Shown one piece after another: positions 16,714-44,204 of a stretch of 64,000 nt of DNA; position 1 is the first letter of the stretch; every line of letters begins with the position of its first letter. The stretch is from Halosolutus amylolyticus. Its GTDB lineage: Archaea > Halobacteriota > Halobacteria > Halobacteriales > Natrialbaceae. Location: NCBI RefSeq assembly GCF_023566055.1, contig NZ_JALIQP010000007.1, forward strand, positions 62,001-126,000. The letters are read 5' to 3'. The notes below the pieces were generated by a model, which saw nothing but the letters and a program-made list of their open reading frames with translations, did no database searches and had not been told where the DNA came from. Position numbers and translations under genes: made by a program.

Positions 16714-16970
16714 GGTGGCGACTCACATCGGGCGTCCTCGTACTCGCCCTGACTGTCTGCGCGCTCGCGTCGACGGGGAGCGTCAGCGGGTCGTCAGCGG
16801 AGACAGCCATCGATACGACGTCTCAAGCGATCACGGCGCAGTCGGTCGCAGAGCAGACGCTCGTGATCGCGGCCGGCGGGCTATTGCTCGGCGCAGGTCT
16901 AGGCGTCGCGCTCGTGAGCGGCGCGACTTACTGGTACAAGAGTCGGGAAATCGGAGGAAAACTCCAATGA
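16710..16970 (+). CDS. Small secreted/membrane protein in the tubulin operon
   Basis: An 86-residue protein with an N-terminal hydrophobic signal (LTSGVLVLALTVCALAST, residues 5-22), a short Ser/Thr/Ala-rich outer segment, and a second hydrophobic helix (TLVIAAGGLLLGAGLGVALV, about 50-69) followed by a short basic tail (YWYKSREIGGKLQ). The likely topology is outside N-terminus after signal cleavage and a cytosolic tail. It overlaps tubulin 2 by four bases at its start and the next gene by four at its end (both ATGA). No family recognised. It could be a pilin-like or assembly subunit of a membrane complex. Confidence 0.75.
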   Translation: MRWRLTSGVLVLALTVCALASTGSVSGSSAETAIDTTSQAITAQSVAEQTLVIAAGGLLLGAGLGVALVSGATYWYKSREIGGKLQ

Positions 16971-20061: not shown

Positions 20062-20064
20062 CTC

Positions 20065-24209: not shown

Positions 24210-24213
24210 CGAC

Positions 24214-25206
24214 ATGCACACACACAACCGTCGGGCGACGATACTGACTGCGATACTTGTCGTCGCGACGATCACGACGGTACCGCTCTTCGGGGGGACC
24301 GCCGCCGCCCAAGAGGAGACGGCGAACGACTACTTCGAAACCTTCCGCTCGATGGAAGGGACCGAAGCCTACGACGAGTACGACGAACTGGAGACAGTCC
24401 GGACGTTCGCCGTCTCCAAAACGCAAGTAACGGGTGAGCTCACGGCGGCCGACCAAGCGGAGTTCGAGGCCGTCCTCGGGGTTCTCACCGAGTTCGATCG
24501 CGCTTACGTCCTGGCCGAGGGCGGCGACTACGAGGCGAGTCTCGCGGCCGCCGAAAACGTGAGCGCCTACGCAGACGATCTCGAGGAGTACGATCAGACG
24601 CAGGCAACGCTCGCGACTCTCGCGCTGACGCGGTTCTACGAGCGCCTTGGCGATGGCCTCTACGAGGAAGCCGATGCGACGAACAGTACACCCGAGCGAA
24701 TTGAGCACCTCGGTATGACCGCGACGGCCTACGAGCGGGCCGACATGCCCGAAGAAGCGACGCAGTTCCGGGTCCAGGCCGAGCAGTTGTCCGCCGAGTT
24801 CGAGCGGGATCGCGAAACGATCGCGACCGTGCAGAACGCCTCGTCTACCTTCCTCGAGGACTGTGCCGACTGTGCGGACGTGCAGGCGGCTGTCAGCGCG
24901 AACGGGTTCGAGACGTTCGCGGCGTATCAGGACGCAGAGGCGACGCATATCCAGATCCGAGAGGCGCGGGAGCGTGCGGCACACCACGGACTCGCCGATC
25001 GCGAAGAACAACTGGCGGCGATGAGTGACGATGTCGGTCAGACGCGAACGACGCTCGCGATCGCCTCCGTCGTCGTCCTGATCGGGTACGGTGTCGTCGT
25101 CGGCCTGCTGGGAACGATCGTAGCCGGACGACTCTTCGTCTGGCGGCGGACGTACGATGCTGCGAGGGTCGGCTCGGTCGTGTCGGTAGGTGATAGCGAT
25201 GTCTGA
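24214..25206 (+). CDS. Secreted helical protein with C-terminal TM anchor
   Basis: A 330-residue protein starting at the ATG at 24214, four bases after the previous stop. A signal peptide (AILVVATITTVPLFGGTAAAQ, read in two parts AILVVATITTVPLF and GGTAAAQ) is followed by an acidic, almost wholly helical outer domain (about 35-275) with tetratricopeptide-like helix spacing and a CADCADC-type cluster (FLEDCADCADVQ). One transmembrane helix (about 279-303) precedes a short basic cytosolic tail (WRRTYDAARVGS). It overlaps the next gene by eight bases. A surface-exposed helical bundle held by one TM segment suggests a receptor or structural component. No family recognised. Confidence 0.78.
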   Translation: MHTHNRRATILTAILVVATITTVPLFGGTAAAQEETANDYFETFRSMEGTEAYDEYDELETVRTFAVSKTQVTGELTAADQAEFEAVLGVLTEFDRAYVLAEGGDYEASLAAAENVSAYADDLEEYDQTQATLATLALTRFYERLGDGLYEEADATNSTPERIEHLGMTATAYERADMPEEATQFRVQAEQLSAEFERDRETIATVQNASSTFLEDCADCADVQAAVSANGFETFAAYQDAEATHIQIREARERAAHHGLADREEQLAAMSDDVGQTRTTLAIASVVVLIGYGVVVGLLGTIVAGRLFVWRRTYDAARVGSVVSVGDSDV

Positions 25207-27466
25207 GCGAGTCCTGCCCGTCGCAGTCGTCTGCGCCCTCGCACTCGGACTGACGATAGCCGCGGTCCCGGGGGCGGCCGTACAGAGCGGCTCCGTCACC
25301 GTCGATGCAGCGAGCGAACCGGTCGAAGTGGGGACGGAGTCCGAAACGCACTCCGTCACAATAAAGAACGACCGGAACGAGTCCGTCTCGGTCGATGTGT
25401 CGTCGTCGGGGTCCGGGATCTCCATAGATCCGGATCAGTACACCGTCGCCGCCGAAACCACGGAGGAGATCACCCTCGAGATCGAGGCGGCCGACGACGC
25501 GGGCGACGGCACGATCACCGTGAGTGCCGGTCGTGACTCGGACGATTTTCAGGTTGTTCGCCCTGCTATCGCCGGTCTAGAGGACGAACCCCTTGATATC
25601 GGCGACGTCGTCGTCGGTGACAGCGCGTCCGGTGAGATCGATATCCAGGAGCTCACGGGCGAGGAGAGCCTCAGTTACGTCGATGCGACCGTCGTCAATA
25701 CCGATCAGGATGCAGATCTCGGCGTCAGCGCGAGCGATACCACGCTGAACTGGAACGCCTACGCAGACAGCGGCGTCGACCAGTACGAGGACCTCTCGTG
25801 GGAGGTCGAACTCGTCCCCAACGGCAATGAGGGGGCGGCCCGAACCGTCGACGTCGAGGGCCGCGTCATCTATCCCGCCGAGTTCGGCGCGGTCGAACTA
25901 GACGACGAGATGACGCTCGACGAGCCGCGGGACTCGACGTCGACGATCACGAAGACGGTCGAGCTCGAAGTCGAGAACGCAGGGGATCTCCCGCTCGTGC
26001 TCGACGACGTCACGGCGTCCTCTTCGAACTCCGGTATCGACGTCTCCGTCGCTGACCAGCCCGATACGATCGACGGTCGAAGCCAATTTGGGGAGACCGT
26101 CGAACTGGCCGTGACGGCGGATACCCGACTCGAAGAAGGGGAATACGACATCAGCGGTACGGTCAGCTCGACGAATCTCAGCGCGACGGATACGAGCTAT
26201 GAGGGAACCGTGACTATTGAACACGGGACTGAACTCGATGCTCCCAACCGGATCGAGTTTGGCGACGTTCCGATAGGTGAATCTGAACGGCAGTCGACCT
26301 CGGTGGGCGAGGTACTCGGCTACAACGATGTCGATAACCTCGAGATAACGCTCGAGGACGGGCCGGAAAGGTGGATGACGATCGAGGACTCACCAGGGAA
26401 CCTTGACGCTGGTGAATCCCAACCGGTGGTGTACCAGGCCGCGTTCGACACCGATGCGGAACTGGGAACCAGCTACGAGTGGACATACGTGGTTGATGGC
26501 GACGGCGTCGACAAGAAGACGGTGATCGTCGTCGCTTCACCGGTGCCGCTCGATCTCGATCCGATACGTCAGGACGTCTCCGCGTATGATGGGCCGGTCG
26601 CCGACGGGACCGTCGAGATGATCGAGACGATGGACGACCGGATGCGATCGGGCGAGGTCTCCAGCGAGGACGTCACGACGGTGCTCTCTTACGGCAGCGC
26701 TGCGTCGCTGTATCTCGAGTCCATGGAGAGGGTCCGCGAACGACAGTCTGCCGGTGAGTACGAGGCGGCCCAGACGGAAATCGTCCAGGCGGCGGCCGCG
26801 TACAACACGATGACGCTTTACGCGGACGAACTCGACGGCGCGACCTTCCGAGCGGACAGCGACAGGGCGGTCTCCGCCGCCGAAGACGACCTCGAATCGG
26901 CGATCGGGGAGCAGGAGGCGTACTACAAGGATCGCCTCGAGTCCGGCAACGTCTCGCTGGTGGAAGAAGCGACGATTCAGCGACAGCTCGCTCGCGTCGT
27001 CTCGCTCCAGGGCGACGATGAGCGGGCCGCGGCGCTCGAGGCGAGCGCCAAATCCTCGTTCGAAAACTACACTGCAGCCATCTCGACGGGCGAGCGAGCG
27101 CGTCAGCGGGCCGAAGAGACGTGGTCGACGATGGAGTCGGAGCAGTTCCTGACGGTCGCCGGCCAACCGTTGCTCTTGAATCCGGCCAAGTACGACGCGT
27201 ACACCGACAACGTCGACGAGATGAACACGGCCTACGAGAACGCGACGGCGACGTTCGAAGCGGCCGGCGAGTCGAGTCGCGCGGCGGATGTCGCGACCCA
27301 ACACGAGTCCCGGACCGCGACGTTGCAGATAACCCGCGTGTCGCTGTTCACCTCTCTCGCCGTCTACGCGCTGGCCGTCCTTGGGATCGTCGTCCGCACC
27401 GCACGCGGGACCTACTGGTACCTCCGAGACGCGCGGGAGTCGGTCAGCGGCGACTTCCTCGTGTGA
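25199..27466 (+). CDS. Secreted Ig-like repeat protein with C-terminal TM anchor
   Basis: A 755-residue protein; the ATG at 25199 is preferred because it begins directly with a signal peptide (SERVLPVAVVCALALGLTIA). Four or five Ig-like/NPCBM-associated-type beta domains follow (about 30-450; SVTIKNDRNESVSVDVSSSG and KTVELEVENAGDLPLVLDDV are typical). A helical region comes next (about 460-700) and resembles the outer domain of the preceding protein. A single transmembrane helix (about 715-737) ends in a basic tail. It is the last gene of the left arm and faces the right arm across a 190-bp gap. Its ectodomain could contact the S-layer or a neighbouring cell. Confidence 0.8.
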   Translation: MSERVLPVAVVCALALGLTIAAVPGAAVQSGSVTVDAASEPVEVGTESETHSVTIKNDRNESVSVDVSSSGSGISIDPDQYTVAAETTEEITLEIEAADDAGDGTITVSAGRDSDDFQVVRPAIAGLEDEPLDIGDVVVGDSASGEIDIQELTGEESLSYVDATVVNTDQDADLGVSASDTTLNWNAYADSGVDQYEDLSWEVELVPNGNEGAARTVDVEGRVIYPAEFGAVELDDEMTLDEPRDSTSTITKTVELEVENAGDLPLVLDDVTASSSNSGIDVSVADQPDTIDGRSQFGETVELAVTADTRLEEGEYDISGTVSSTNLSATDTSYEGTVTIEHGTELDAPNRIEFGDVPIGESERQSTSVGEVLGYNDVDNLEITLEDGPERWMTIEDSPGNLDAGESQPVVYQAAFDTDAELGTSYEWTYVVDGDGVDKKTVIVVASPVPLDLDPIRQDVSAYDGPVADGTVEMIETMDDRMRSGEVSSEDVTTVLSYGSAASLYLESMERVRERQSAGEYEAAQTEIVQAAAAYNTMTLYADELDGATFRADSDRAVSAAEDDLESAIGEQEAYYKDRLESGNVSLVEEATIQRQLARVVSLQGDDERAAALEASAKSSFENYTAAISTGERARQRAEETWSTMESEQFLTVAGQPLLLNPAKYDAYTDNVDEMNTAYENATATFEAAGESSRAADVATQHESRTATLQITRVSLFTSLAVYALAVLGIVVRTARGTYWYLRDARESVSGDFLV

Positions 27467-27658: not shown

Positions 27659-30600
27659 TCACTCGAGCCGAAACGGCGTCGACAGCGACGACGGACCGTC
27701 CGCGTCCTCACTCGCGTTCTCGACGCGATCGATCGACCACTGCTCGCGGTGGTCGTCGGTCCAGGCAGCTTCGTCCTCGGCGGACGGACCGGCCGCGCGA
27801 AGAGCGACCTCGCGCTCCGAGCCGTCGGCCGCGTACCGAATCGTCGCGTCGAACGACGGCGACCTCACGCCTGGTTCCATATCGACGAAGTGCTCGATCC
27901 GATCGCCTGGCTCGAGGCGTTCGCGACGCGCCTCCGAGTAGAACAGGTCGTTGATCGGTTCGCCGCTGGCCGACACCGCGACGTCCGTCAGCGGTCGGTC
28001 GCCTTCGTTTTCGAAGACCAGCACGACGGTTCCGTACTCGCCAGCGACCTGCGTCTCCGGACCGATCCCGATCTGGAACGGACCGTCGCCGTCCACGCCA
28101 TCGTTGGGGCCGTGTTTTGTGGCCGACGAGACGTCCGCGATGATGTCGAGACGCCGCTCCGCGCCGTCGCCATCGCCGACCACCAGGACACCCTCAAGCG
28201 CGTCCGTGTCCGTTCCGAACTGTTCGTCGAGGGCCCCGGTAGCGGTGGTCGTCTCGCCGTGCTCGAGCCGGGCCTCGATCGGGACCGACCGGCCGCCGAT
28301 CTCGAGGCCGCGAACGGTCCGGAGACGATCGCTGCGGTTTACGATGTCGGCGACGACGGTCCCGTCGGTTGCGTCGACGGTCGCCCGCACGGCGAGGCCG
28401 TCGCCGCTGGCGGCCAGCTCACGCTTGGGCAACCGCTCGCAGACCGTTCCGTCGAGTACAACCGACGCCTGCGACAGGACAGTTTCCGAGCCGGAGCCGA
28501 TTGCGACCGAGCGCTCGACGGCCGTCCGGTCGCCGGCCGCGAGACGACCGACGTCGACGGTCGAGTCGCCGATCTCGACGGTGACGTCGCCTGCTGACTC
28601 GCCCTGGTTCTCGAGTTCGATCCGGTCGCGGACAGCGTGGCCGGCTGGGATCGAATCCTCGTCGATCCGCCGGGTCGCGACCAACTGCGGTTCTCCGACA
28701 TCCCCTTCGTCGGCGTCGGCCCCGGAGCCGCCACCGATTCGCTCCTCGTCGCTCGCCGAAGCCGTCGCGGAAGGTTCGCCCCCGGCTCGCGACCGATCGT
28801 CCGATCCGTCGTCGCCGTAGTCGGGTCCCGACGGGGACGGTGTCGCAGGAGCGGCGTCGGCGGTCGCTTCGTCGGGCGCGGAGTCCGTCGGTGCGGTTCC
28901 ATCGTGACGATCGTCGCGATCGTCGCGGTTCTCGCGTCGGTTCTGCGCCGACAAATCGGCTGTGTCACTGTCTGTCGACGCAGTCGTATGATCGGATCGC
29001 GTCCCGTCCGTTCGACCGGTCCGACGGCGGTCCGATCCCCCGATCCTCGACGAGCGGCCGAACGAACCCGGACCGCCGGAGAGCCGGACCCGCTCGTCGA
29101 CGTCGAGGGATTCGAACCCGATCCGTGCGGTCCCGTCGTCGAACTGCGGGACGATCAGCAGGAACTCGTCGCGCTCGATCGTCACCTCCGTTCGGACCCG
29201 GCCCGCTCCCGGGAGTTCGATTACGAGTCGATCGACGACGGTCACCGAGTCGTCGGTTTCGACGGTCGCTCGAACCGCGTCGCCGTCCGGTTCGACGTCG
29301 ATCGTCGGGACGGGTGGCAGCGTACACGTCGGGGCGTACTCCCGGCGTCGATCGCCTCGAGCGACCTCGAGTCCGACTGAGACCCGCCGATCGGGCTCGT
29401 ACGGCCGAGAGACCGTTCCAGTCCACTCCTCGCCGGGCTTGAGAGCGTCGGTTCCCTCGTTGGTCTCGCGTAGCCGAAGGGCTTCGAGTCCCACCCCACC
29501 GACGTTTTCGACGGTGACCGCGAGTTCGGCGACACCATGCTCGATCGTCGCCACTTCGATATCGGTATCGACGGCGATCCCGCCGCTCGCTGCGTCGTCG
29601 AGGTCGATCACGGCCTGTTCGAGGACCGATCCGTCTACGGTGAGTTCGACCGTCGTCTTCCCTTCGGCCCGGATCGATTCGACCGGAAAGTCGACGATCG
29701 TCGTCTCGCCGGCCTCGACGGCCGCAGTCCGATCGGCCGGTGAGAGTGTCGCTTCGTCGATCGACGCTGACAGCGATAGTCGGCGCTCCCGGTCGGTCAC
29801 GTTGGTCACCTCGACGTCGATCGTACCGCCGACGCCGACGCTCTCGGTCGCGACGGCGACCCGGAGCTGATCGCGGCTGTGGACGTACGTCGAGACGGTC
29901 TCGTCCCGGACCGCACAGACAAGTGAGCTGTCGGGCGTCGCGTACCCCTCCCCGCTTGAGAGTCCGGCGACCGGCGTCGTCGCCCCGGACGGATCGACCG
30001 CGCGGATGCCGTCGGCGGTCGTCACCAGCACCGACGACTCACCGACCGGCGCGACGTGTTCGACTGCGAGCTCCGTCCGCCAGCGGGAAGTTCCGCTCTC
30101 GAGGTCGGCGGCGACGAGGCGCTCGTTCTGGAGCGCCGCGACGATCGCATCGTCACACCGCCCCAGGCTCCGTACGACGGCCTCGAGGTTGCGATCGAAG
30201 TCGACCTCGCCCTCGAGGTCGATTCGGGTCAGAAACGACCACGTCGAAATCGCGAACCCGGCCGGTGTGCCTAGGAGGGCGTCGTCTGCCGGTCCGCCGG
30301 GACGGACGCGCTCGACGTCGAACCGCTCGCGGCCGGTCTCGATATCGACCGACCTGAGCCGTTCTGGCCCGAGCACGCCGGCGAGTCCCTCGTCGCTGAC
30401 GGCGGCGACAGCGTGGCTGTCTGCGGCCGGCTGCTCTCGGATCCGCTCGCCGGTTCGGGAATAGGTCGTCAACGCGTCCGACGAGAGGACGAGCACGCGA
30501 TCGGCGAGGGCGACGTCGACGATGCGGTCGCCGTGATCGATCTCGACCCGATCGCTCCCCGTCTCGACGACGACACGGTCGCCGATCCCGACAGCGATCG

Positions 30601-30673
30601 CTCCGTCGTCGACGCCGACGGCGTCGACGGGATCGCTCTCGAAGGAACCGACCTGCCGGTAGCCGTCACTCAT
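27659..30673 (-). CDS. Beta-propeller and Ig-like repeat scaffold, apparently cytosolic
   Basis: A 1004-residue protein starting at the ATG at 30673, which overlaps the AAA+ gene stop. Residues 1-285 are an eight-or-so-bladed PQQ/WD-like beta-propeller (repeats of the form VAAVSDEGLAGVLGP and IVAALQNERLVAADLESGTSRW). Several CARDB/Ig-like domains follow (about 285-520), then a Ser/Thr/Asp/Arg-rich disordered linker (about 525-640) and three more Ig-like modules to the end. There is no signal peptide and no transmembrane helix, although such modules are normally extracellular. It is translationally coupled to the AAA+ ATPase, so a substrate-presenting or scaffold role for that enzyme is a reasonable guess. 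No family recognised as a whole. Confidence 0.8.
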   Translation of the reverse strand: MSDGYRQVGSFESDPVDAVGVDDGAIAVGIGDRVVVETGSDRVEIDHGDRIVDVALADRVLVLSSDALTTYSRTGERIREQPAADSHAVAAVSDEGLAGVLGPERLRSVDIETGRERFDVERVRPGGPADDALLGTPAGFAISTWSFLTRIDLEGEVDFDRNLEAVVRSLGRCDDAIVAALQNERLVAADLESGTSRWRTELAVEHVAPVGESSVLVTTADGIRAVDPSGATTPVAGLSSGEGYATPDSSLVCAVRDETVSTYVHSRDQLRVAVATESVGVGGTIDVEVTNVTDRERRLSLSASIDEATLSPADRTAAVEAGETTIVDFPVESIRAEGKTTVELTVDGSVLEQAVIDLDDAASGGIAVDTDIEVATIEHGVAELAVTVENVGGVGLEALRLRETNEGTDALKPGEEWTGTVSRPYEPDRRVSVGLEVARGDRRREYAPTCTLPPVPTIDVEPDGDAVRATVETDDSVTVVDRLVIELPGAGRVRTEVTIERDEFLLIVPQFDDGTARIGFESLDVDERVRLSGGPGSFGRSSRIGGSDRRRTGRTDGTRSDHTTASTDSDTADLSAQNRRENRDDRDDRHDGTAPTDSAPDEATADAAPATPSPSGPDYGDDGSDDRSRAGGEPSATASASDEERIGGGSGADADEGDVGEPQLVATRRIDEDSIPAGHAVRDRIELENQGESAGDVTVEIGDSTVDVGRLAAGDRTAVERSVAIGSGSETVLSQASVVLDGTVCERLPKRELAASGDGLAVRATVDATDGTVVADIVNRSDRLRTVRGLEIGGRSVPIEARLEHGETTTATGALDEQFGTDTDALEGVLVVGDGDGAERRLDIIADVSSATKHGPNDGVDGDGPFQIGIGPETQVAGEYGTVVLVFENEGDRPLTDVAVSASGEPINDLFYSEARRERLEPGDRIEHFVDMEPGVRSPSFDATIRYAADGSEREVALRAAGPSAEDEAAWTDDHREQWSIDRVENASEDADGPSSLSTPFRLE

Positions 30674-32399
30674 CGTCCTCACCGCCGTTCGAGTCGATCC
30701 CCTCGTCCACGGAGTCCGGATCCGAGATGTCTATCTCGGCCATGTCCGACCCTGGTTCGTTCCCTTCGGTCGGCCCCGGCTTCGGTTCCGCCGCTCCGGC
30801 CGTCGGTTCGTTTGCCGCCTGTTCGGGCGGCTCCGTTCCGGTGCCAAAAAGCTGTCCGAGCGACGATGGCTCCGTTCTGATGTGCATGTCCAGCTGGTCG
30901 GCCTGGGCCTCGACGTAGCGTTTGAGTTCGGGGTAGCCCTCGAGGTCGTCAATCTGCGTCCGGACGCTCGCGACGTACTGCCGGATCGTCTTCGGCTCGG
31001 TCTCGTTGAGCCGGTCGAAGAAGTAGTCGGTATCCGGCTCTATCGGCTCCCGGTCGGGGAGGTGAACGCTCTCAACGAGTTCGCGCTGCAGTTCGCTGCC
31101 GAGCACGCGGTCGGCGATTTCCGCCGGGGTGTACCCTTTCGAGGCCCTCCCGAGTCGTTCGTAGTCGATGCCTTCGGTGTCCATGGCCGAGAGGTGTTTA
31201 CGCCAGACCTCGGCCATCACGTCCTCGTCGGGCTGGGGGATGAACTGCTGGATCGGGAACCGGCGGGTCGCCGCCGGATCGATCGTGAATGGCATGTTCG
31301 TCGCCCCGATGACGAGCAGGTTATCTTCGATTTCGTTCATCTCCTGCAGGAAGGCGTTGGTCAGCGACCGCTCGTGGCGCTGCAGGGAGTCGTCCCCCCG
31401 ATCCGGGATCAGGGTGTCGACCTCGTCGAAAAACAGGACCGCGAACCCCTCCTGTGCGATCCCGTGCGCCTTCTCGAAAATCGCCTCGACGCGTTTCTCC
31501 GACTCGCCGGAGTACTTCGAGAGGACGTCGCTGCCCTTGATCTCGAGGAACTTGACCTCGCCGTAGGCGTCCTCGATGCTCGAGTTGAACTTCGCCTCGT
31601 AGGCGATCGCCTCCGAGATGAGGGTCTTCCCGCAGCCGGGCGGTCCGTACAGCAGCATGCTGTTGCCTCGGGAAGCGAACTCGTCGCCGTAGCGGTCGAC
31701 GACCTCGTCGCGAACGTCGGGATCGAACAGGGCGAGCAAGTTCTCCGCTGTGCGCTTTACTTCCGGGAGGCCGGCGACGTCGTCCTCGAAGCTGACGGTC
31801 GGCTTCTTGGGCTCGAGCGAGACTTGGACTCCCACCTCGTCGCCAGCCGCCTCTCCGGCAGGGCCAGGGCCACCGCGACTCGCCGCGTCCCGCGTCGCCC
31901 GTAGTTCCCGGAGTTCGCCGGCGCCGATGAACTCGATTTCCGTGTCCGGTGTGACCCGCAGCGTCGTGTACCCTGTCGGCTCCATCGCGGCGACCTCGAA
32001 CGTCGCTCGTTCGTCGCCTTTCGGGACGACCTCCTCCATCGGGTGCAACAGATAATCGTTCTCTCGAAGGAACGGCTCGAGTTCCTTCGGCGTGACCTCG
32101 CTGGTGTGGATTTTCGCTGCGGAACATTCCACGACGTCATGTTTCGACGCGCCGGGATCCACGAGGAAGTCCTTGCCGCGGTCAATCCCCCCGAACACCG
32201 TCTTGACGTTCCGGTGCATCCGGACCTTGTTCCCGATCCCGTCGACGATCGAGTCGTCAACCGGTTCGACGTAGAAGAACGCCCGTCTGTCGTTGTGTCG
32301 GATCTCGACGGCGTCCGTTTCGAGGCCGACCTTCTTGGCTCCGATCTCGATTCGGGACGTCGGCTGATCTCGTTTCAGTATTGGGGTCAGATTAAGCAT
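30666..32399 (-). CDS. Cdc48-type AAA+ ATPase with N-domain and single AAA ring
   Basis: A 577-residue AAA+ ATPase starting at the ATG at 32399, overlapping the preceding stop by eight bases; the longer open frame upstream is a shadow. Residues 1-165 resemble the Cdc48/VAT N-domain (a double-psi barrel plus second lobe; VVPKGDERATFEVAAMEPTGY is typical of the second lobe). The AAA module has Walker A GPPGCGKT (252-259), pore-loop region SKYSGES (294-300), Walker B FFDEVD (323-328), sensor 1 Asn368 in GATNMP and arginine-finger region RRF (379-381). Only one AAA ring is present, unlike canonical two-ring Cdc48. The C-terminal ~70 residues are acidic and disordered. Probably an unfoldase or disassembly engine for the neighbouring proteins. 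Confidence 0.9.
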   Translation of the reverse strand: MLNLTPILKRDQPTSRIEIGAKKVGLETDAVEIRHNDRRAFFYVEPVDDSIVDGIGNKVRMHRNVKTVFGGIDRGKDFLVDPGASKHDVVECSAAKIHTSEVTPKELEPFLRENDYLLHPMEEVVPKGDERATFEVAAMEPTGYTTLRVTPDTEIEFIGAGELRELRATRDAASRGGPGPAGEAAGDEVGVQVSLEPKKPTVSFEDDVAGLPEVKRTAENLLALFDPDVRDEVVDRYGDEFASRGNSMLLYGPPGCGKTLISEAIAYEAKFNSSIEDAYGEVKFLEIKGSDVLSKYSGESEKRVEAIFEKAHGIAQEGFAVLFFDEVDTLIPDRGDDSLQRHERSLTNAFLQEMNEIEDNLLVIGATNMPFTIDPAATRRFPIQQFIPQPDEDVMAEVWRKHLSAMDTEGIDYERLGRASKGYTPAEIADRVLGSELQRELVESVHLPDREPIEPDTDYFFDRLNETEPKTIRQYVASVRTQIDDLEGYPELKRYVEAQADQLDMHIRTEPSSLGQLFGTGTEPPEQAANEPTAGAAEPKPGPTEGNEPGSDMAEIDISDPDSVDEGIDSNGGEDDE

Positions 32400-33105
32400 T
32401 ATCGTCACTCCGTATCTGTGTCGTCGCGTCCTCGATCGTCGATAACAGTTCGCCCTGGCGGTGGTCGGTACGATCGCGGACGTATCGGGTATCGGCATCC
32501 GCCCGCCGAACAACGATCGAGAGGGTCTCGAGCATCTCGACGATCGACTCACAGCCGATAGTGAGCGCTCCAGCGGCACCTGATGCCTGTACTCGGCTGA
32601 CGATTCGTCTGAAGTCATCGAGGACATCCTCGAGGCGCTCGAGTGCGGTCCGGATGAGCGGTCGCCAGTTTCGCGCGTACGGTGCGGACGCCGACAGCGG
32701 GACGAACACCCGTGAGTCAACAGTCTCGAACCGGTCGTCGGCCGCGACGCGATCGGCGACGTCCGGCTCGAGTCGCTCGATTGTCGCCTGGCCGCGTTCG
32801 TAGCCGACCTCGAGAACCCGGCGAACGAGGTCATCCCGTTTCTGCGAGTCGATCCCCGTTCCCGTCTTTCGTGTCCCCCCATCGGGCTGGAATTCGAACT
32901 TGACCGGCCGAGCGCAGGTTTCCTCCACGAGGCGTGGGGGAAACGGGGCGCCAGCGCGAAGTAGTTCGGCGACGTCGACGAGCGTAGCCATCGCGACGTC
33001 GACCCGCCACGCGGGATTCGGGTCCGAAAACGTCCGCACAGCGAGGAGCCGCTTCCCCTGTTCGTCGACCCGACGAATCCCCTGCAGCAGTGAGTCTGCG
33101 CGCAT
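32392..33105 (-). CDS. Uncharacterised helical protein upstream of the AAA+ gene
   Basis: A 237-residue protein starting at the ATG at 33105, one base after the preceding stop; the upstream open frame is non-coding. It is mainly helical with a short beta-containing middle (PVKFEFQPDGGTRKTG, then VDSRVFVPLSASAPYARNW). The C-terminal ~80 residues form a predicted helical hairpin. There is no signal peptide or TM segment. It overlaps the AAA+ gene by eight bases, so an adaptor or cofactor role is plausible. I recognise no family. Confidence 0.7.
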   Translation of the reverse strand: MRADSLLQGIRRVDEQGKRLLAVRTFSDPNPAWRVDVAMATLVDVAELLRAGAPFPPRLVEETCARPVKFEFQPDGGTRKTGTGIDSQKRDDLVRRVLEVGYERGQATIERLEPDVADRVAADDRFETVDSRVFVPLSASAPYARNWRPLIRTALERLEDVLDDFRRIVSRVQASGAAGALTIGCESIVEMLETLSIVVRRADADTRYVRDRTDHRQGELLSTIEDATTQIRSDDNA

Positions 33106-33106
33106 C

Positions 33107-34165
33107 CTACGACATCTCGAGTTCACCGGTTTCCGTTTCGGGGCCCGTCTCGTCAACCGTTTCGCCAGCCGTCTGCTGGGCAGTCTCGCCGACACTCTCG
33201 ATGTCGCCGAGGACGTCGTCGACCAGCGTGGCGACCTCGTGGTCGGGCGTCTCCTCGATCGTCTCCTCGATACCGCCGACGCCGGCGAGCTGGGTCGTCA
33301 GCTCGCCCATGTTGTCGACGATGTTCATCGCCTCGTCCGGGAACGTCTGCTTCTTTAATGCCTGCGTTCGGACCTGCTCGCGTTTGTTCGCGAGCGTCAG
33401 CTTGGCCGACTCGAGCATCTCGATGTTGTCCGCTAGCCGATCGGTCCCGCTCTCGACTTTCTCCGCGAGGTTCTCACGATCGGCCTCCTTCATCTTCTTG
33501 TGGTAGACCAGTTTCCGCTTGAGCTGCCGGAACCGATCACGCTCCTCCGCCGGGAGCTCTGCGGGATCCTGTGGCACGCCTGGTCCGTCGCCGAGGCTCT
33601 TGAGCTCCTGGGCGGTCTCCGTCAGATATTCATCGATCTTTCCTGAGTCGTGCTCGACGTCGGCCATCCTATTCTCGAGTTTCTCCTTCGCGCCGTCGAC
33701 CCGATCGATCGTCTCGGAGATCTTCTCGACGCAGGCGTCGATCGCGGCCGCCCAATTGAGGATCATCCGCCCGTTTATCTCCTCAGGATTGTTGCTCGGG
33801 TTGCGAAGCATCTCGACCTTCCCCCCCTGCAGGTTCAGGATGTCCTCGTCAGCGAAGAACTCGAGCAGCGCCTCGGCCTGTTGCTGGCTGGTGACGATGT
33901 CTCCCTCGTCGTCGCTGGCTGCAGCGAGCGTCTCGATCGCTTTCCGTCGGTCAATTCGGCCGTTCCCCTCCTCGAGTTCCATCGATCCCAGTAGGTCGGT
34001 CTTGATGATCGCGCGAATGGCCCGTTCCCATTCGCCTTCGATGTGGTCACCCTTGATCCAGCGAGCGTCAAGGCGAACTGGATTGTCGGTTTGGTTGACC
34101 GGGTCGGCGATCACGTACTCCTGTCCATCGCTTTCGATCCGTTTGAAGTCGTATTTTCGAGACAT
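33107..34165 (-). CDS. Winged-helix plus coiled-coil protein, candidate ESCRT-III-like subunit
   Basis: A 352-residue cytosolic protein. Residues 30-120 look like a winged helix (ALLEFFADEDILNLQGGKVEML). Residues 125-290 are helical with a basic hairpin (FRQLKRKLVYHKKMKEADRE) and a long coiled coil. The segment ALKKQTFPDEAMNIVDNMGE (about 277-296), continuing to GGIEETIEE, has the spacing of the Snf7 alpha-4/alpha-5 region (DxDKVxxxMDxIxEQxxxxxEIxxAI). The C-terminal 50 residues are acidic. Basic N-terminal helices and an acidic tail fit ESCRT-III charge layout. No clear MIT-interacting motif is visible. The neighbours (a tandem winged-helix protein and an AAA+ ATPase) strengthen the idea, but homology was judged by eye only. 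Confidence 0.72.
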   Translation of the reverse strand: MSRKYDFKRIESDGQEYVIADPVNQTDNPVRLDARWIKGDHIEGEWERAIRAIIKTDLLGSMELEEGNGRIDRRKAIETLAAASDDEGDIVTSQQQAEALLEFFADEDILNLQGGKVEMLRNPSNNPEEINGRMILNWAAAIDACVEKISETIDRVDGAKEKLENRMADVEHDSGKIDEYLTETAQELKSLGDGPGVPQDPAELPAEERDRFRQLKRKLVYHKKMKEADRENLAEKVESGTDRLADNIEMLESAKLTLANKREQVRTQALKKQTFPDEAMNIVDNMGELTTQLAGVGGIEETIEETPDHEVATLVDDVLGDIESVGETAQQTAGETVDETGPETETGELEMS

Positions 34166-34242
34166 TGTGGATTAGTAGTTAGAATTTCGGTGATGCGTGG
34201 TCGTGGTGATTGCGTACCTCGTTGTTGTCGTTCTGAGTTCGA

Positions 34243-35361
34243 TCACGCTGCCATCCCGCCGAACTCCTCCTCGTTGACGAGGGCTCTGTACCGATCCTGA
34301 ACCGCATTACGGACGTATTTGTTGACGTCGGTCGTATCACTCACGTGAAGTTCTTCGAAGTGATCCTCGGCCAGTTCGACCCACTCCGGAAGCGTACCAG
34401 GTAGCTGGTCCTGTTCGGCCTTCAGGTCGATAAGAACTCGCCGAGCGTGGTCCTCGACGACGGCTTCGAACGGCTCGATGGCCTCGACCATCTCCTGCTC
34501 AGCTTTTAGTCCGAGTCGGTCGATCAACGTGTCGCGGGTCCCGTCAAGGAGGTCCCCGCGAATGCTGCGGGCCTTTGAGAGGACATCGAATCTGTTGTCA
34601 ATCTCGTTTTCGACGACCTTCTCGAACTCACCGGTTCGAAGCACGTAACTCGATTCCTCGAACTCCGCCTCGACCGCGTCCTCGATCTGTTCGGCGAGAT
34701 ACCGGGCGTATTCGTCGATGGCCTCCTCGACCAGATACTCTCCGTCGAGGTCGACGATGTACCCCTCCCGGTCGAGATACCGGATCACGTCGGCAGTTGC
34801 ATCGACGTCGATGACGCTCTCGAGGTCACTATGGGCGATCTTCCCGTTCGAGGCTTCCCGCTCGAGGCGTGAATCGAGGCCGACATCGTCGGCGTGTTCC
34901 TTGAGCTGGGGACCGATCGTATAGTAGTCGCGTTTTCCCGCTGTAATCCGCCGGACGTAGTTCCGGTCGGCGAGCTCGTCGGCGAAGAACTCGATGTCGT
35001 CAATCGCAAGCGAGAACCGCGACCGTAAGGTCTCCCCCGTGACGACGAGCCGCTGGCCGAACAAGTTTGTCAGCTCGCGGGTGATGTTCATGTTCCCCTT
35101 GACGCCGAACGGATCGACGTAAAAGACGCCGTCTCGCAGTTGCTCGATGTCGATGAACTCGTCGGCCGCCATCACGGTCAACGCTTTTCGCATGTCGCTT
35201 GACGACAGCGACCGCGCGTTGACGAGTCCGATGTTGGCGCTCTCGTAGGCAGACTTGATCTCGCTTTTTTGATCAGAGACGTAGATAAACCCATAATTGT
35301 CCTGGGCAATGTCACGACATACGTCTTCCAGGACATCAGTGTCGACCGGTAAGAGCGTCAT
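34243..35361 (-). CDS. Tandem winged-helix protein with helical C-terminus
   Basis: A 372-residue cytosolic protein, first gene of the right arm. At least two winged helices are visible (about 109-150, ending RDYYTIGPQLK, and 170-212, ending YIVDLDGEYLVEE), and a third may precede them (about 55-85). A helical region (about 215-372) follows. Tandem winged helices of this kind occur in ESCRT-II subunits and in UFL1-like proteins as well as in transcription factors; the lack of a basic recognition helix argues against simple DNA binding. A TATA-like GTTTAGTAAG lies about 25-33 bp upstream on the coding strand (35385-35394), suggesting a leaderless transcript for the right arm. Confidence 0.75.
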   Translation of the reverse strand: MTLLPVDTDVLEDVCRDIAQDNYGFIYVSDQKSEIKSAYESANIGLVNARSLSSSDMRKALTVMAADEFIDIEQLRDGVFYVDPFGVKGNMNITRELTNLFGQRLVVTGETLRSRFSLAIDDIEFFADELADRNYVRRITAGKRDYYTIGPQLKEHADDVGLDSRLEREASNGKIAHSDLESVIDVDATADVIRYLDREGYIVDLDGEYLVEEAIDEYARYLAEQIEDAVEAEFEESSYVLRTGEFEKVVENEIDNRFDVLSKARSIRGDLLDGTRDTLIDRLGLKAEQEMVEAIEPFEAVVEDHARRVLIDLKAEQDQLPGTLPEWVELAEDHFEELHVSDTTDVNKYVRNAVQDRYRALVNEEEFGGMAA

Positions 35362-38996: not shown

Positions 38997-39829
38997 CAAT
39001 TCAACAAACACCACTCGATAGACGCACCGTTCTCGGAAGCATACTCGTCGGGATCACTACTGGACTTGCTGGTTGTTCTGCGTTGAGTGATTCTGATGAC
39101 GACCCATCAACAGACCCCGGTGGAGAGATTATCCAGAGCGTCACGGTCGAAGGGCTTGAGCTCGTGGTTGAACTCGAACGGGATGCAGTTGACCAGCTGA
39201 ACCTCATCGATCCCTCTGGCGAGCTGTTTGCCCAACAAACGATTGAATCGGGGGTGTCCAAAACTGCGATCGAGATTGGGACCGACTATCCAGTTGGCGA
39301 ATACGAACTCCTTGGGCTTGCAGACGAGGAGACCGTTGAGACGACGTCAGTTACGCTCGAACCGGATCTCGAGTTAACAGAACTCCGGTTGGCCAGGAAT
39401 TACCCTGAGGAGATGTACGAGGGTGCGAGAGACTCCAGTACGGAAGCAGAGGCGATACTTTCTGTGACGAATCGAGGAACTGGACCAACCGCAGCTACCG
39501 CGCTTCGGTTCGAAGGCGATGTCCCGTTCCCGACACACGAGAGCTACGATGAGGCTGGAGAGAGTGGTATCTACGATCCAGAGAATGACTTTGGAGCGGA
39601 TGCAGAGTCAATAGCTCTCCCTGCAGGAGAGACAGTCCTGATCTACAGCAACACGCGACCCTTTTCGCCAGCGGGTACACGATCGAAATGCGATTCGGTT
39701 GGACAGGGCGGTCAGTTCACTATCCGCCTCTCTACAAGCCATTCCATAGATCTCACTCTTGACTACGTTATCCACTATCTCGGTACCGCTCCCGATGATT
39801 GTGAGATCGACATTGAGAGGGACTCGTAA
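38993..39829 (+). CDS. Tat-type lipoprotein of the conjugation operon
   Basis: A 278-residue protein starting at the ATG at 38993, overlapping the previous stop. The N-terminus carries a twin-arginine motif and lipobox (DRRTVLGSILVGITTGLAGC, lipid attachment predicted at the Cys of LAGC), the usual haloarchaeal Tat lipoprotein signal. The mature part is acidic and beta-rich with two Ig-like domains. Its stop overlaps the next start (TAATG). It may act like the VirB7/VirB9 envelope components of type IV systems, though no sequence match supports a specific name. Confidence 0.72.
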   Translation: MTIQQTPLDRRTVLGSILVGITTGLAGCSALSDSDDDPSTDPGGEIIQSVTVEGLELVVELERDAVDQLNLIDPSGELFAQQTIESGVSKTAIEIGTDYPVGEYELLGLADEETVETTSVTLEPDLELTELRLARNYPEEMYEGARDSSTEAEAILSVTNRGTGPTAATALRFEGDVPFPTHESYDEAGESGIYDPENDFGADAESIALPAGETVLIYSNTRPFSPAGTRSKCDSVGQGGQFTIRLSTSHSIDLTLDYVIHYLGTAPDDCEIDIERDS

Positions 39830-40968
39830 TGTCGTGGTCACTCTCGGATATCGGGATCAAGTGGTTCGAAGACGCAGTTGACAAGCTCATCGAATGGTTC
39901 CAGGAGGGATTGACAGATGGCTATGAGGCCGTCACGGCACAGGTTTTCGGCACGCCAACACCGGAGACGGATGGCGCCTTCGTGTTTGGTCAACCGTCGA
40001 ACACACCGTGGGAAGAGATTCATGGCAATCTCGTTGCTGGGGAGATCATGCTCGTTTCCCTGTTGTTGCTCGTGATGTGTGTCCAGGGAAGGCATACGAT
40101 TCGAATCTTCAATATCGGCAGTGCGTACGAGACACGAAAGGCAAAGCGCAGTGCCTGGACAGGTGCGTTCCTGATCGTAACGTGGTACTGGGTCGCTGTG
40201 TTAGCGCTCTATCTCGTCGACGGCTTCACCATTGCCCTTCTCCCAGACGTCTCGACGGTAACCGATACAATGATCGACTTGCTTTATTTGACCATTTCGA
40301 ACCCAGCACTAGCTCTCTTCCTCACTGGAGTTGGCGCTGTCGCCATGTGGATCTTACAGGCGCTGTTCTTCCTTCGCGAGATCCTGTTGTACATCTTGAT
40401 CTATGCGATTCCGATCGGTATCGCACTGGCCTATGGAAACCTTCCTGTCGTCTCTCACATCGCCCGCACGGTCTGTATGAAGTTCGTACCGCTTGCGATT
40501 ATGCCGATTCCAGTGGCGCTGCTGTTCAAAGGGTATGAACTCCTGTTCAGTGAGGGGACGGACTCGGCGCTTGTTCCGGATAGTTCGTTCCTGAGCTACC
40601 TCATCGCGGTTACGCTGCCACTCCTTTCGATTCTCATCGTCTGGAAGCTGTTCAAGTATGCCAGCCCGATGACGACGAAGATCATCGGAGCGACGACCAA
40701 GGGCGCAGTAACAGCTGGCGCAGTCGTTGGGGCCGGTGTTGTTGCAGGCCCTGCTGCAGCAGCCACGACTGCGGCGTGGGGACCGAAAGCGGCTGCTGGC
40801 TATACGGCTGCGTCGAAGATGCGCCAAGGCGGTGGCTCATCCCAACAGTCTGGAAACTCGAGCGGCAGCGGAGGACGAACCGACCACGATAACGTTGCGA
40901 CAGATGCGTACGGCCAGGAAGGCGTCCCGGCGTACCGTCGCACCGAGAACGATCCGGGGTATTACTGA
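39829..40968 (+). CDS. Polytopic membrane protein, VirB6/TrbL-like channel subunit
   Basis: A 379-residue protein with about six transmembrane helices: LVAGEIMLVSLLLLVMCVQG (about 69-88), AFLIVTWYWVAVLALYLVDG (about 113-132), then helices near 150-180, 185-205, 215-235 and 253-270. A Gly/Ala-rich segment and a Ser/Gly-rich disordered C-terminal tail follow. The pattern matches VirB6/TrbL-type inner-membrane channel proteins, and it sits directly before the VirB4-type genes. The next ATG immediately follows its stop. Assignment rests on topology and context. Confidence 0.75.
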   Translation: MSWSLSDIGIKWFEDAVDKLIEWFQEGLTDGYEAVTAQVFGTPTPETDGAFVFGQPSNTPWEEIHGNLVAGEIMLVSLLLLVMCVQGRHTIRIFNIGSAYETRKAKRSAWTGAFLIVTWYWVAVLALYLVDGFTIALLPDVSTVTDTMIDLLYLTISNPALALFLTGVGAVAMWILQALFFLREILLYILIYAIPIGIALAYGNLPVVSHIARTVCMKFVPLAIMPIPVALLFKGYELLFSEGTDSALVPDSSFLSYLIAVTLPLLSILIVWKLFKYASPMTTKIIGATTKGAVTAGAVVGAGVVAGPAAAATTAAWGPKAAAGYTAASKMRQGGGSSQQSGNSSGSGGRTDHDNVATDAYGQEGVPAYRRTENDPGYY

Positions 40969-42069
40969 ATGACACGAGATCACGATGCAGCTGGCCGTCG
41001 AATCATGGATGAGCTGGGTGAAGAGAGTCGCATACCGATTCTGAACATCGAGGAGGGAGACGTCTATGTGCTCCTTGGCTTCCCGATCGGTGGCCTCCTC
41101 TTTGGTGGGCTCACGGGACTCGATGGTGCGATCTTACCGTTCGTCCTACTCGGTGTCGTCCTTGGTGGGTCGATCGTCTACGCGTCACCCAACCATCTCC
41201 CGGCGTCAACGTGGCTGGGAGACGTCTACCGCCACTACTGCAAGCGGCCTCGGTTCACCTACAGCACGGAGGCCACGGCTGAGTCCACCGAAGCGAGTAC
41301 CGAAGGCGGACTCGTGAGCTATACGCCGTTCAAGCCGGACGAACGAACACAGGATCTCACGAACATCAGGCGAGCGTGGCCTGGTGCCGGTGCAATCGAG
41401 CGCTCCGATGGCGCGATGGAGGCCTACCTCGAGATCGATCCCGGGAACATGGACTTCGCGATGTCCGGTGACTGGGCTCAGATTCAGCAACTCGGCGAGG
41501 AGTTCGCGAACAAGGAACTCGACTTCACGCTCAAATTCCACGCTACGACTCGGTCGTTCCCAGTCGAGAAGCTGATCGAGCGAATCGATGGGCGGCTCAC
41601 TGACAGCGACGTCAAGCAGAACCCGATCTTCAAAGAGTTACTCGAGGAGTATCGCGAGCAACGTCCGCGAGACCTCGAGGGGACCCAACAGGTACGGTAT
41701 TTCATCGGCGTCGAAGTCGACCCCTTCGAGGTCTACGATCGGTATCAGGACGAACAGTCGCCCGCTGAAAAACTCACCTCGTTTCCGGTGGTCGGCTTCC
41801 TGTTCAACCCGTTCGTGACTCGTCGCAACGACATGACCGACGCGGAGATCCGGGCGGCCATGTTCGAGAAACTCGAGAACCGCTGCCACGGTCTCCAGAC
41901 GGAATTCATCCAGAAGGCATCAGGATGGTCCGCTCATCGGCTTACGACGGTCGAACTATTCGTCCTTTCACTGGACTTCTGGAACGGCGAGGAACACGAA
42001 TACGACGACGGAGCGGATGCAATTCGTGATCATCCGACCATTGATCATCAACGGAGGGTCGATCAGTGA
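40969..42069 (+). CDS. VirB3/VirB4 N-terminal-like transfer protein
   Basis: A 366-residue protein. Two hydrophobic helices (VYVLLGFPIGGLLFGGLTGL, about 32-51, and ILPFVLLGVVLGGSIVYAS, about 55-73) are followed by a soluble domain (about 100-366; GAMEAYLEIDPGNMDFAMSG and ELDFTLKFHATTRSFP) like the N-terminal domain of VirB4/TraC ATPases. There is no Walker motif; the ATPase domain is encoded by the next gene. It thus resembles a VirB3 (PrgI-like) TM segment fused to a VirB4 N-domain split from its motor. Coupling to the next gene is by a GTGA overlap. Confidence 0.75.
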   Translation: MTRDHDAAGRRIMDELGEESRIPILNIEEGDVYVLLGFPIGGLLFGGLTGLDGAILPFVLLGVVLGGSIVYASPNHLPASTWLGDVYRHYCKRPRFTYSTEATAESTEASTEGGLVSYTPFKPDERTQDLTNIRRAWPGAGAIERSDGAMEAYLEIDPGNMDFAMSGDWAQIQQLGEEFANKELDFTLKFHATTRSFPVEKLIERIDGRLTDSDVKQNPIFKELLEEYREQRPRDLEGTQQVRYFIGVEVDPFEVYDRYQDEQSPAEKLTSFPVVGFLFNPFVTRRNDMTDAEIRAAMFEKLENRCHGLQTEFIQKASGWSAHRLTTVELFVLSLDFWNGEEHEYDDGADAIRDHPTIDHQRRVDQ

Positions 42070-44204
42070 TCGACGCACTCCCCGATCCAGGGACGCAGGC
42101 TGGGATTGCCCTCTACATCGGTGCAACGGCATTGCTCACGCTTCTCGTGAAGTGGGGATGGGACCGCTGGCGAGCTGAAGACGTCGAAGAAGTCGAACTC
42201 GCGGATCTCCTCGAGGAGGCGACCGTCGAAGACGGCCTCGAAGAGGGTCAGGTCCTCGACGACATCGCCGAACATCATCAACACGTCGTCGCACCGGCGG
42301 CGATCGAGTGGGATACGCGGACCGCTCGCGTCGGTGATCAGTGGACGTCCACACTCTACATCGCCGATTACCCGGATTACCCGAAAGACGGCTATCTGAC
42401 CGAACTCTTCGAGCTCACGGACGTCGAGTTCGATCTGACGGTCCATATCACCCCGAAGAGTCAGCAGCAGGCTCGAGACGAACTCCAGCGAGTGGCCGAC
42501 GACCTCCAGGCCGATGCTGACCTCGAGCGTACTGTCCGTGGGAGCTATCTTCAGGAGCGAGCCAACGAGGCGCTGTCGACGTACAAGAGCGTTGAGAACG
42601 GGAGCCGGGTGTTCGAGCAAGGCATGTTCATTACGGTTCGATCGGAGTCACGTGACGAGCTTCGTGACGCCGTCCGGACAGTTCGGAGCCGGCTTCGTGA
42701 ACAACCCGCTGGACTCTCGCCGAAGACGGCTATCTGTAAGCAAGACCTCGCCATCCAGGCTGCAGCGCCAATCGGCCCCAACCCGTTCGGCCGGGAGGCC
42801 ACAGCACTCGGTGGTGCGGTCGGTGCGTTGCTCGCGTCGCCACATAACGCCACAATTCTCGAGGACGGCGGCGTCGAGTTCGGCGTTCACTGGAAGAACC
42901 AGAGTCCGGTCGTCATCGACCCGTTCGCTCGAGAGAACGGCTATGCGATGTTCACGATCGGTGACCCTGGTTCTGGCAAATCGTTCGGATCGAAGCAGAA
43001 CTTCATCCGTTCGATTGAGCAAAGCGAGGACCGTATCGGGATCATCCTCGAGCCGCTGAACAACTGGGCCGGTGTCGCCGAAGCCCTCGGTGGTGAGCGA
43101 ATCACAATCGGCGGGGAGATGGGTTTGAATCCCCTCGAGATCAAGCCCACTCCCGAACGTGTGCAACGGGCAATGGGCAAGGACGCCAGCCCGTATCGCG
43201 AAAAGCTCGATAGCGTGATGAGCTTCCTCTCGAACTATTTTGCGCTTCGGGGAATCACACTCGGCGACCGCCGGACGACGTTGGAGACCGCGATCGAGCG
43301 TGCCTATTCACGCAACGGAATTACCGACGATATCGCGACTCATCACAACGAGAGCCCGACGATGCGGGACGTCCTCGACATCCTCGAGGAGATGGTCGAG
43401 ACCCCGGAAGAGTACGTCGTGCGGACGGATGAGGAAGCGACGAAGATCGGCGAAGACGCAACGTGGCTCATCGATCAGCTTCGCCCGTTCGCGGAAGACG
43501 GCCGGTACGAGAATTTGGGCCGAGAGACCGAATTCGACATCCGCGACGAGAAGGTGATCTATCTCGATCTCGCCCAGCAGGAGGGCAGTCTCGGTGGGAG
43601 CACGAGTCTCGTCATGCAGTTGTTGATCTCGTTGGTTTATGAGCGAGCGAAGGAGACGGACAAAGAGGTCGTCTTCGTCATCGACGAGGCTCGGTACATC
43701 ATGCAGGATGCGGCGAGTCTCGAATACCTCGAGATCGTCTTCCGTCACCACCGACATCACAACCTCTCGATCCGACTTGTGACCCAGACCGTCGACGAGT
43801 TCTTCCAGCATCCAGAGTCCGAGGCGATCATCGACCAGTGTGCGATCAAGCAGTTCCACCACCTCGACGGCATGGATCGTGAGTGGGCCAACGAGTTCGG
43901 CCTCAACTCGGCACAGATGCGCTTCGTCCAGGAAGCCGTTCCCGGCAACGACCGGACGGGCTATTCGGAGGCGCTCGTCGGCGTCGACGGTGAGTGGCGG
44001 GGAATCGAAGTCCGAGCAATGGAAGACGAGACGGCAGTGATCGACTTCGATCCGAAAGCCCAGTCACAGACTGAGTTGCCAGGCCGTTCAGCAGACACAT
44101 CTACAGAGCGATCTATGAATACTAATCCAACAACCTCACGCCAGGTCTCAACTCCACCACAGACTGATGGCGGTAAGCACGGAGGTGAATCGAAACATGA
44201 GTAA
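42066..44204 (+). CDS. virB4: VirB4/TraC-type conjugation ATPase
   Basis: A 712-residue ATPase with a GTG start at 42066 overlapping the preceding TGA. One N-terminal hydrophobic helix (about 13-28) precedes a VirB4-like N-domain. The HerA/FtsK-type motor has Walker A GDPGSGKS (299-306) and Walker B VVFVIDEA (535-542), followed by RLVTQTVDEFFQHPE, the arm containing the sensor Gln typical of VirB4. It powers assembly of the secretion channel and substrate transfer at the membrane. The C-terminal 40 residues are Ser/Thr-rich. It overlaps the coupling-protein gene by eight bases. Confidence 0.9.
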   Translation: MIDALPDPGTQAGIALYIGATALLTLLVKWGWDRWRAEDVEEVELADLLEEATVEDGLEEGQVLDDIAEHHQHVVAPAAIEWDTRTARVGDQWTSTLYIADYPDYPKDGYLTELFELTDVEFDLTVHITPKSQQQARDELQRVADDLQADADLERTVRGSYLQERANEALSTYKSVENGSRVFEQGMFITVRSESRDELRDAVRTVRSRLREQPAGLSPKTAICKQDLAIQAAAPIGPNPFGREATALGGAVGALLASPHNATILEDGGVEFGVHWKNQSPVVIDPFARENGYAMFTIGDPGSGKSFGSKQNFIRSIEQSEDRIGIILEPLNNWAGVAEALGGERITIGGEMGLNPLEIKPTPERVQRAMGKDASPYREKLDSVMSFLSNYFALRGITLGDRRTTLETAIERAYSRNGITDDIATHHNESPTMRDVLDILEEMVETPEEYVVRTDEEATKIGEDATWLIDQLRPFAEDGRYENLGRETEFDIRDEKVIYLDLAQQEGSLGGSTSLVMQLLISLVYERAKETDKEVVFVIDEARYIMQDAASLEYLEIVFRHHRHHNLSIRLVTQTVDEFFQHPESEAIIDQCAIKQFHHLDGMDREWANEFGLNSAQMRFVQEAVPGNDRTGYSEALVGVDGEWRGIEVRAMEDETAVIDFDPKAQSQTELPGRSADTSTERSMNTNPTTSRQVSTPPQTDGGKHGGESKHE

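Follow-up and report, generated by a model that had tools for sequence, protein, structure and literature searches.

Does a haloarchaeon encode an ESCRT-III-like protein in one gene neighbourhood with an AAA+ ATPase and relatives of tubulin? This had been proposed, from similarity seen by eye, for the gene at 33107-34165 (minus strand; hereafter P) of the window, i.e., the whole 64,000-nucleotide stretch of DNA analysed, which lies on a 232,709-base contig (C7) of the haloarchaeal genome G000 (Halosolutus amylolyticus). The gene itself is real: its 352-aa ORF is intact, its third-position GC is of the coding type along its length, and its product is conserved from end to end, with a mean column identity of 78% in a 16-row alignment and of 44% in a more diverse 26-row alignment, the rows of which go down to 25% identity. 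We would describe P as a winged-helix/helical-hairpin subunit of a Halo_adaptin-type system; its identity as a Snf7/CHMP7-like ESCRT-III protein is neither demonstrated nor refuted by the comparisons described below.

The locus and its published counterpart

P comes second in an operon on the minus strand, ordered WH-P-X-AAA-h (27659-35361). The first gene, WH (34243-35361, 372 aa), is probably arCOG11740 and seems to be the tandem winged-helix protein predicted upstream of P, the winged-helix-like repeats and the fold being read by eye and from the published description, although a Pfam search with the window member gave no match. P (gene two) likely consists of a winged helix, a long helical hairpin and an acidic tail. 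The ATPase gene (AAA, 30666-32399, minus strand; Pfam AAA, 4.6e-32) does stand downstream of P as predicted, but not directly next to it, since gene X (32392-33105, minus strand), which the original prediction had missed, intervenes; X starts with an ATG at 33105, directly past the P stop, and encodes a helical protein of 237 aa with a winged-helix-like insert. The last gene, h (27659-30673, minus strand, 1004 aa), holds a conserved position, and its product seems to combine a propeller-like N-terminus, read by eye and from the published description, with an Ig-like/NEW3 ("adaptin-like") region (NPCBM_assoc, E 0.002).

Facing this operon is a plus-strand one with the order a-T1-b-T2-c-d-T3-e-f-g (9079-27466), which contains three genes of the tubulin/FtsZ superfamily: T1 (11171-12769), T2 (15277-16713) and T3 (20065-21288). 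All three score above the Pfam Tubulin cut-off of 33 bits (45.9, 46.4 and 36.5 bits; E 1e-11, 7.2e-12 and 7.8e-9, respectively), fall below the FtsZ equivalog cut-off and are only weakly alike one another, points in which they differ from the CetZ tubulins (surveyed in PMC9856176), with which they share the haloarchaeal tubulin superfamily. The phosphate loops of the copies in the loci read TKGTGCG in 20 of 22 T1, GGGTGCG in 22 of 23 T2 and GGGTGNG in 33 of 35 T3 sequences, and the degenerate loop of T1 suggests that it may be an inactive or modified GTPase. The remaining products are mostly membrane-associated, as judged by eye in several cases: b (12806-14956) is helical with a putative membrane anchor, a weak bPH_3-like match and a conserved position between T1 and T2; c (16967-17974, start approximate) appears to be a secreted or membrane protein with a signal peptide and a membrane span; d (17971-20061), a putative membrane protein with a span and a coiled coil, keeps its position before T3; and f (24214-25206), likewise conserved in position, has a putative membrane span. 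Conserved as well are the membrane proteins e (21285-24209; CarboxypepD_reg/Ig-like domains, PF13620, 2.1e-5) and g (25199-27466; ASH/HYDIN-like Ig domains, PF15780, 1.9e-5), the Ig-like matches in e, g and h being weak to moderate. The operon starts with the helical gene a (9079-10965), conserved beside T1 and giving an Rce1-like match at residues 58-120; its ORF begins (9079-9440) in a CAAX-protease-like manner, and the first ~120 residues are perhaps the remnant of another gene.

The same parts, a CetZ-related protein included, were described for the Halo_adaptin ESCRT systems of Halobacteriales by Makarova et al. (2024, mBio; PMC10936438; preprint PMC11188069), whose section on these systems lists an ATPase of the Vps4 clade that has a VAT/Cdc48-type N-domain and lacks MIT, winged-helix and propeller-Ig proteins and tubulin, and proposes a role in vesicle formation or protein sorting. 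Judged from its genes, the window locus matches this system, as it contains a Vps4-like ATPase with a VAT-type N-domain and without MIT, tubulin genes and Ig proteins, the propeller being recognised by eye; three genes (WH-P-X) stand upstream of the ATPase, where the published section has two winged-helix proteins and an ESCRT-III-like gene, the winged-helix folds being weakly modelled here. According to both versions (PMC10936438, PMC11188069), the ATPase is preceded by a gene with weak likeness to PspA, and this in turn by one for a winged-helix and coiled-coil protein (arCOG11741), so that P seems to be arCOG11741 and X, by its position, the presumed ESCRT-III; the published wording, however, assigns duplicated winged-helix domains to arCOG11741 as well (PMC10936438), which makes its mapping onto P and X uncertain.

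With this description in print, the coupling of ESCRT-like and tubulin-like parts in one locus, which had been predicted for the window and is borne out by the three Pfam Tubulin genes, is not new. A literature search for the Halo_adaptin system names returned only the 2024 paper and its preprint, a wider search showed no experimental study of the module among the papers listed, the system being in print as a prediction, and the section of PMC10936438 devoted to it contains no experiment. Three features found here were not found in that section: three distinct tubulins per locus (one CetZ-related protein is named there, whereas three tubulin-like genes are seen here), the co-occurrence of the two halves without linkage, and the paralogy of P and X.

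Conservation and distribution of the module

Among 44 loci around relatives (40 fetched stretches and L002-L005), 40 contain P. WH precedes it in 39 of these and AAA follows it in 38; the order breaks at L071, which lies at a contig end, and at L073, a solitary P-like ORF of 259 aa. An X-like ORF lies between P and AAA in 36 of the 38 loci having both, the other two being L048, where the ORF picked was in a wrong frame, and L066; after removal of the L048 ORF and of duplicate sequences, 35 X sequences remained. L066 (genome G072) has the other genes of the module but no X ORF longer than 120 aa in the 629-base gap from P to AAA, and X may be disrupted or strongly diverged at this locus. Genome G378 carries two copies of the module (L048 and L049) on one 464-kb contig (C2), one of them truncated where the contig begins.

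Of 391 genomes of the class Halobacteria, 38 have a relative of P, spread over 16 of 86 genera. Within the family, 16 of 125 genomes gave matches, one of which is spurious (47 residues, in G030); it is no P relative, and its locus (L053) has no module genes. T3, searched for in the same draw of genomes, was found in 40 of the 391, including all 38 with P, which leaves G158 and G160 as the T3-only genomes (Fisher p = 8e-51, genome relatedness being ignored). All three tubulins stand beside the ESCRT half in 19 of the 20 genomes in which the next 20 kb were added; the twentieth (G139), as well as G171 and G199, has the tubulin half elsewhere in the genome and keeps both halves. As T3 is found in every P genome, these three unlinked ones included, the ESCRT half and the tubulin half are co-inherited in a patchy pattern and are retained jointly even when unlinked.

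Relatives of P were also found in five plasmid records. Beside the module in the window (39829-50230) are conjugation-like genes, namely TrbL/VirB6 (E 6e-228), a TraG-type P-loop protein, a HerA-like protein of 1224 aa and a primase-like one, and the window further contains a Cdc6 gene (3291-4973) and a Fic protein gene (28-1230), all of which suggests that the module may ride a megaplasmid. A viral origin of P was searched for and is unsupported: no P relative was found in viral contigs, and P had no match in PHROGs.

The two T3-only genomes differ in what they retain. In G158 (L223, 10273-12966), h and g-f-e-T3 are present, WH-P-X-AAA was not found, and a helicase-like gene occupies the site of the ESCRT operon. 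In G160 (L226, 8428-19821), the tubulin half and h, without WH-P-X-AAA, abut a 1077-aa FtsZl1-like protein (GLGGGTGSG) and two membrane proteins, thereby providing a link between the Halo_adaptin and FtsZl1 systems, the FtsZl1 identity being assigned by eye. The FtsZl1-centred systems of archaea (Makarova and Koonin 2010, PMC2875224) likewise pair a tubulin-superfamily protein with membrane-protein partners, and yet, as described there, they are built on a single FtsZ-like protein of ~1000 aa with vWA/GTPase partners and have no ESCRT half.

The ATPase and the two helical proteins

The NCBIfam matches of AAA, CDC48 (7e-37) and CdvC (1.9e-33), are both far under the curated cut-offs. A 24-row tree of AAA modules was built from the 12 ATPases of the module, eight Cdc48/PAN-type sequences encoded in the window's own genome and four Vps4 proteins with MIT from the phylum. 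In it, the module's ATPases fall on the side of MIT-type Vps4 rather than of Cdc48/PAN, with a support of 100/97 (99/97 when L189, left out as a long branch, is kept). Their stem is long (2.42), which means that the placement may carry an artefact; the assignment to the Vps4 clade is, on this tree, good rather than final. Comparison of the N-terminal 200 residues with the N-domains of Cdc48 proteins from the same genome gave E 0.0008-0.006, as against 0.3-0.9 for controls, and no MIT match was found in that genome at E<=0.01. The ATPases of the main-clade archaeal ESCRT loci (for instance L125, L128 and L138), whose Vps4 proteins carry MIT, group with those of the module, and in both cases the ESCRT genes are upstream of the ATPase. 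A defence-system assignment via IetA/IteA (PADLOC, E 3e-28; NCBIfam, 90 bits against a cut-off of 510) was rejected as general AAA similarity.

For P, the AlphaFold2 model (mean pLDDT 58.7, pTM 0.43, from a shallow alignment of five sequences) places helices at residues 127-191, 206-270, 278-294 and 308-332 (65+65+17+25 residues), with pLDDT block means mostly of 66-83 in the hairpin; an alpha/beta region at residues 42-119 would fit the winged helix predicted ahead of the helices, although pLDDT there is mostly near or below 50. Helices of the length anticipated for a Snf7-family protein are seen in this weak model and the tail is acidic, whereas the predicted basic-to-acidic charge shift is contradicted by the sequence, the charge per residue being -0.12 in the first long helix, +0.05 in the second and -0.24 in the tail, i.e., acidic, approximately neutral and acidic (the first 75 residues of the organism's own PspA average +0.01). 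The likeness to Snf7/CHMP/CdvB ESCRT-III and PspA/Vipp1 lies in the long helical hairpin followed by shorter helices, the acidic end and the adjoining winged-helix and Vps4-type genes; the differences are the acidic first helix, the putative N-terminal winged helix, an ATPase without the MIT that would receive a MIM, and the missing sequence match.

The Snf7 profile gave no match to P at E<=1, and its search of the whole genome at E<=10 found two other places and none at the P locus. Since diverged archaeal ESCRT-III proteins also stay under the Snf7 cut-off, this is weak evidence against membership. The ESCRT-III proteins of the main-clade type lack a winged helix such as the one predicted for P, and the one of them checked as a positive control, from a methanogen, has Snf7 as its best Pfam match at E 6e-4. 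No match was found to the PspA family either. Names offered for P by Pfam, NCBIfam, PHROGs and PADLOC were generic coiled-coil matches (the best being ERM_helical, E 0.002, HmpF, 0.0018, and LmuB, 0.0024) and were rejected as composition-driven, and a Pfam scan of 26 P relatives returned only generic coiled-coil families among the best 25 of 105 rows. When the P model was compared with known structures by Foldseek (best E 0.0098), CdvB2 filament chains appeared three times in a list of long hairpins (ranks 13, 30 and 47; prob 0.82-0.90), many unrelated ones ranking above them; with VIA-align, hairpins of other families came first, the best row being IncA (Z 12.9, in a range common for helical bundles), and no CdvB, CHMP, PspA or Vipp1 was among the best 50 matches listed for this weak model. 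With weak models or short lists, such missing ESCRT-III rows for P and X do not count against membership.

Profile-profile comparison, proposed as a check of the ESCRT-III assignment, gave an outcome that at first sight favours it. Against a narrow ESCRT-III profile (Neff 1.4; 12 methanogen-type proteins adjoining, or related to those adjoining, MIT-type Vps4), the helices of P scored 24.1, a value reached by none of 100 heptad-preserving shuffles, and against a profile of 27 PspA proteins they scored 22.8 (reached by 2 of 100), the maxima for 24 decoy windows from other module proteins being 16.3 and 17.1; these and the following shuffle counts ignore genome relatedness. Hairpins of 17 haloarchaeal chemoreceptors (four windows), however, scored 18.6-26.0 against the same P helices. 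As these coiled coils equal the ESCRT-III score, the likeness of P to ESCRT-III is non-specific, and the profile evidence for it was withdrawn despite the beaten shuffles and decoys. The test, moreover, has little power at this distance, as the known ESCRT-III/PspA pair does no better than P (19.9, reached by 0 of 100 shuffles; 18.7, reached by 3 of 100, the other way round).

X behaves differently, its scores against ESCRT-III (11.3) and PspA (11.6) being reached by 40 and 34 of 100 shuffles, and those against the chemoreceptors being 11.6-13.5. P and X, on the other hand, match one another with a score of 28.4 (E 0.0039; reached by 0 of 100 shuffles, whose maximum was 22.7; HH-suite probability only 10%), collinearly across the winged helix and the first long helix, at the head of which an Asn-Trp pair is invariant (P, 26 of 26 sequences; X, 19 of 19). 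This similarity argues for the paralogy of P and X, X being the shorter copy. The AlphaFold2 model of X (pLDDT 79, pTM 0.70) had a best Foldseek E of 0.14, with no CdvB, CHMP, PspA or Vipp1 among the best 50 matches listed, and the first four VIA-align rows were MukF (Z 11.0-11.7; next family, 8.8), aligned to MukF residues 120-313 over 147-162 residues at an rmsd of 4.9-6.8. X has no match to MukF by sequence, and the likeness of the model is a possible hint of kleisin-like packing, to be treated as a lead only.

What the module might do

We slightly favour the view that P belongs to an ESCRT-type module of haloarchaea (Halo_adaptin) that remodels membranes and whose ATPase would remodel a helical-hairpin scaffold. 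This view starts from what was observed, namely the order WH-P-X-AAA, an ATPase of the Vps4 clade, the coupling of this half to three tubulin-like proteins and the similarity of the P and X profiles. P and X, its shorter paralogue, would form the winged-helix-headed hairpin scaffold; WH, with its tandem winged helices, would nucleate it much as ESCRT-II does ESCRT-III; the VAT-type N-domain of the ATPase would take the place of the MIT-MIM contact in extracting subunits; the propeller-Ig and membrane proteins would bring cargo or membrane; and tubulin filaments would organise the site, the output being the budding of vesicles or a local remodelling of the envelope rather than cell division. 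P would function like ESCRT-III or as a partner of it, membership of the Snf7 family not being claimed. Such a scaffold is in keeping with the constancy of the flanking genes (WH in 39 of 40 loci, AAA in 38 of 40, X in 36 of 38), with T3 in all 38 P genomes as compared with 40 of 391 overall and both halves kept unlinked in G139, G171 and G199, with the 100/97 Vps4 grouping, the Cdc48-like N-domain and the same layout in the published section (PMC10936438), and with the P-X score of 28.4 and the invariant Asn-Trp pair. Against it stand the missing Snf7/PspA match, the chemoreceptors equalling the ESCRT-III score of 24.1, the pLDDT of 58.7, a first helix that is not basic, the long ATPase stem and the two genomes that keep the tubulin half without WH-P-X-AAA, and vesicle formation itself is a conjecture.

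Several other explanations draw on the same evidence. A reading of P as a genuine but diverged ESCRT-III that begins with a winged helix (a CHMP7-like order) and forms membrane filaments disassembled by the ATPase is possible but tentative: the 65+65+17+25 helices with an acidic end, the CdvB2 chains in the Foldseek list and a helix profile exceeding all 100 shuffles and 24 same-locus decoys, with X at shuffle level, speak for it, while the missing Snf7 match, the equally scoring chemoreceptors, the unrelated hairpins outranking CdvB2 and the acidic first helix speak against it. Somewhat more doubtful is the most plausible reading of the published text, in which P is a winged-helix and coiled-coil adaptor (arCOG11741) and X the derived ESCRT-III; the position of X directly before AAA in 36 of 38 loci and the PspA-like gene placed there, with the coiled-coil protein upstream of it (PMC10936438), agree with this, although X matches neither ESCRT-III nor PspA above shuffle level, its model, at a pLDDT of 79, finds nothing better than E 0.14, and the mapping relies on published wording that is not fully consistent. 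The ATPase might instead act on the tubulins, severing or recycling them in the manner of katanin and spastin, with WH-P-X as an adaptor complex and no ESCRT-III polymer; we regard this as unlikely, even though T3 accompanies P when unlinked, the ATPase falls into the Vps4 clade and neither P nor X gives a specific ESCRT-III signal, as two genomes keep tubulins without the ATPase, the T1 loop is degenerate and the polymerisation of T1-T3 is presumed. The idea that WH, P and X form a KITE/kleisin-like complex of the MukE/MukF type recruited to the ATPase seems very improbable: X is modelled closest to MukF, PF17192 (MukF_M) is among the weak matches of 4 of the 26 P relatives, and MukE also has tandem winged helices, but Z values below 13 are usual for helical bundles, the rmsd is large (4.9-6.8), X and MukF do not match by sequence, and the module has no SMC gene.

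Beyond the membrane-remodelling scaffold favoured above, a bolder proposal, which we consider improbable at present, would have the module as a tubulin-remodelling machine, with the three paralogous tubulins in a mixed or layered filament that is severed or recycled at the membrane by the Vps4-clade ATPase, aimed by WH-P-X. Katanin and spastin are related to the Vps4 clade, and in eukaryotes tubulin and the ESCRT machinery work together during abscission and in closing the nuclear envelope. If the proposal were true, the module, with its ESCRT-like adaptors, would be the prokaryotic equivalent of katanin/spastin, and P would be a tubulin adaptor or an ESCRT-III-like coat along a tubulin track. 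A conserved prokaryotic module in which an ESCRT-type ATPase, winged-helix/hairpin scaffolds and three tubulins are kept together, even without linkage, would make the origin of the ESCRT-tubulin partnership testable in cultivable haloarchaea.
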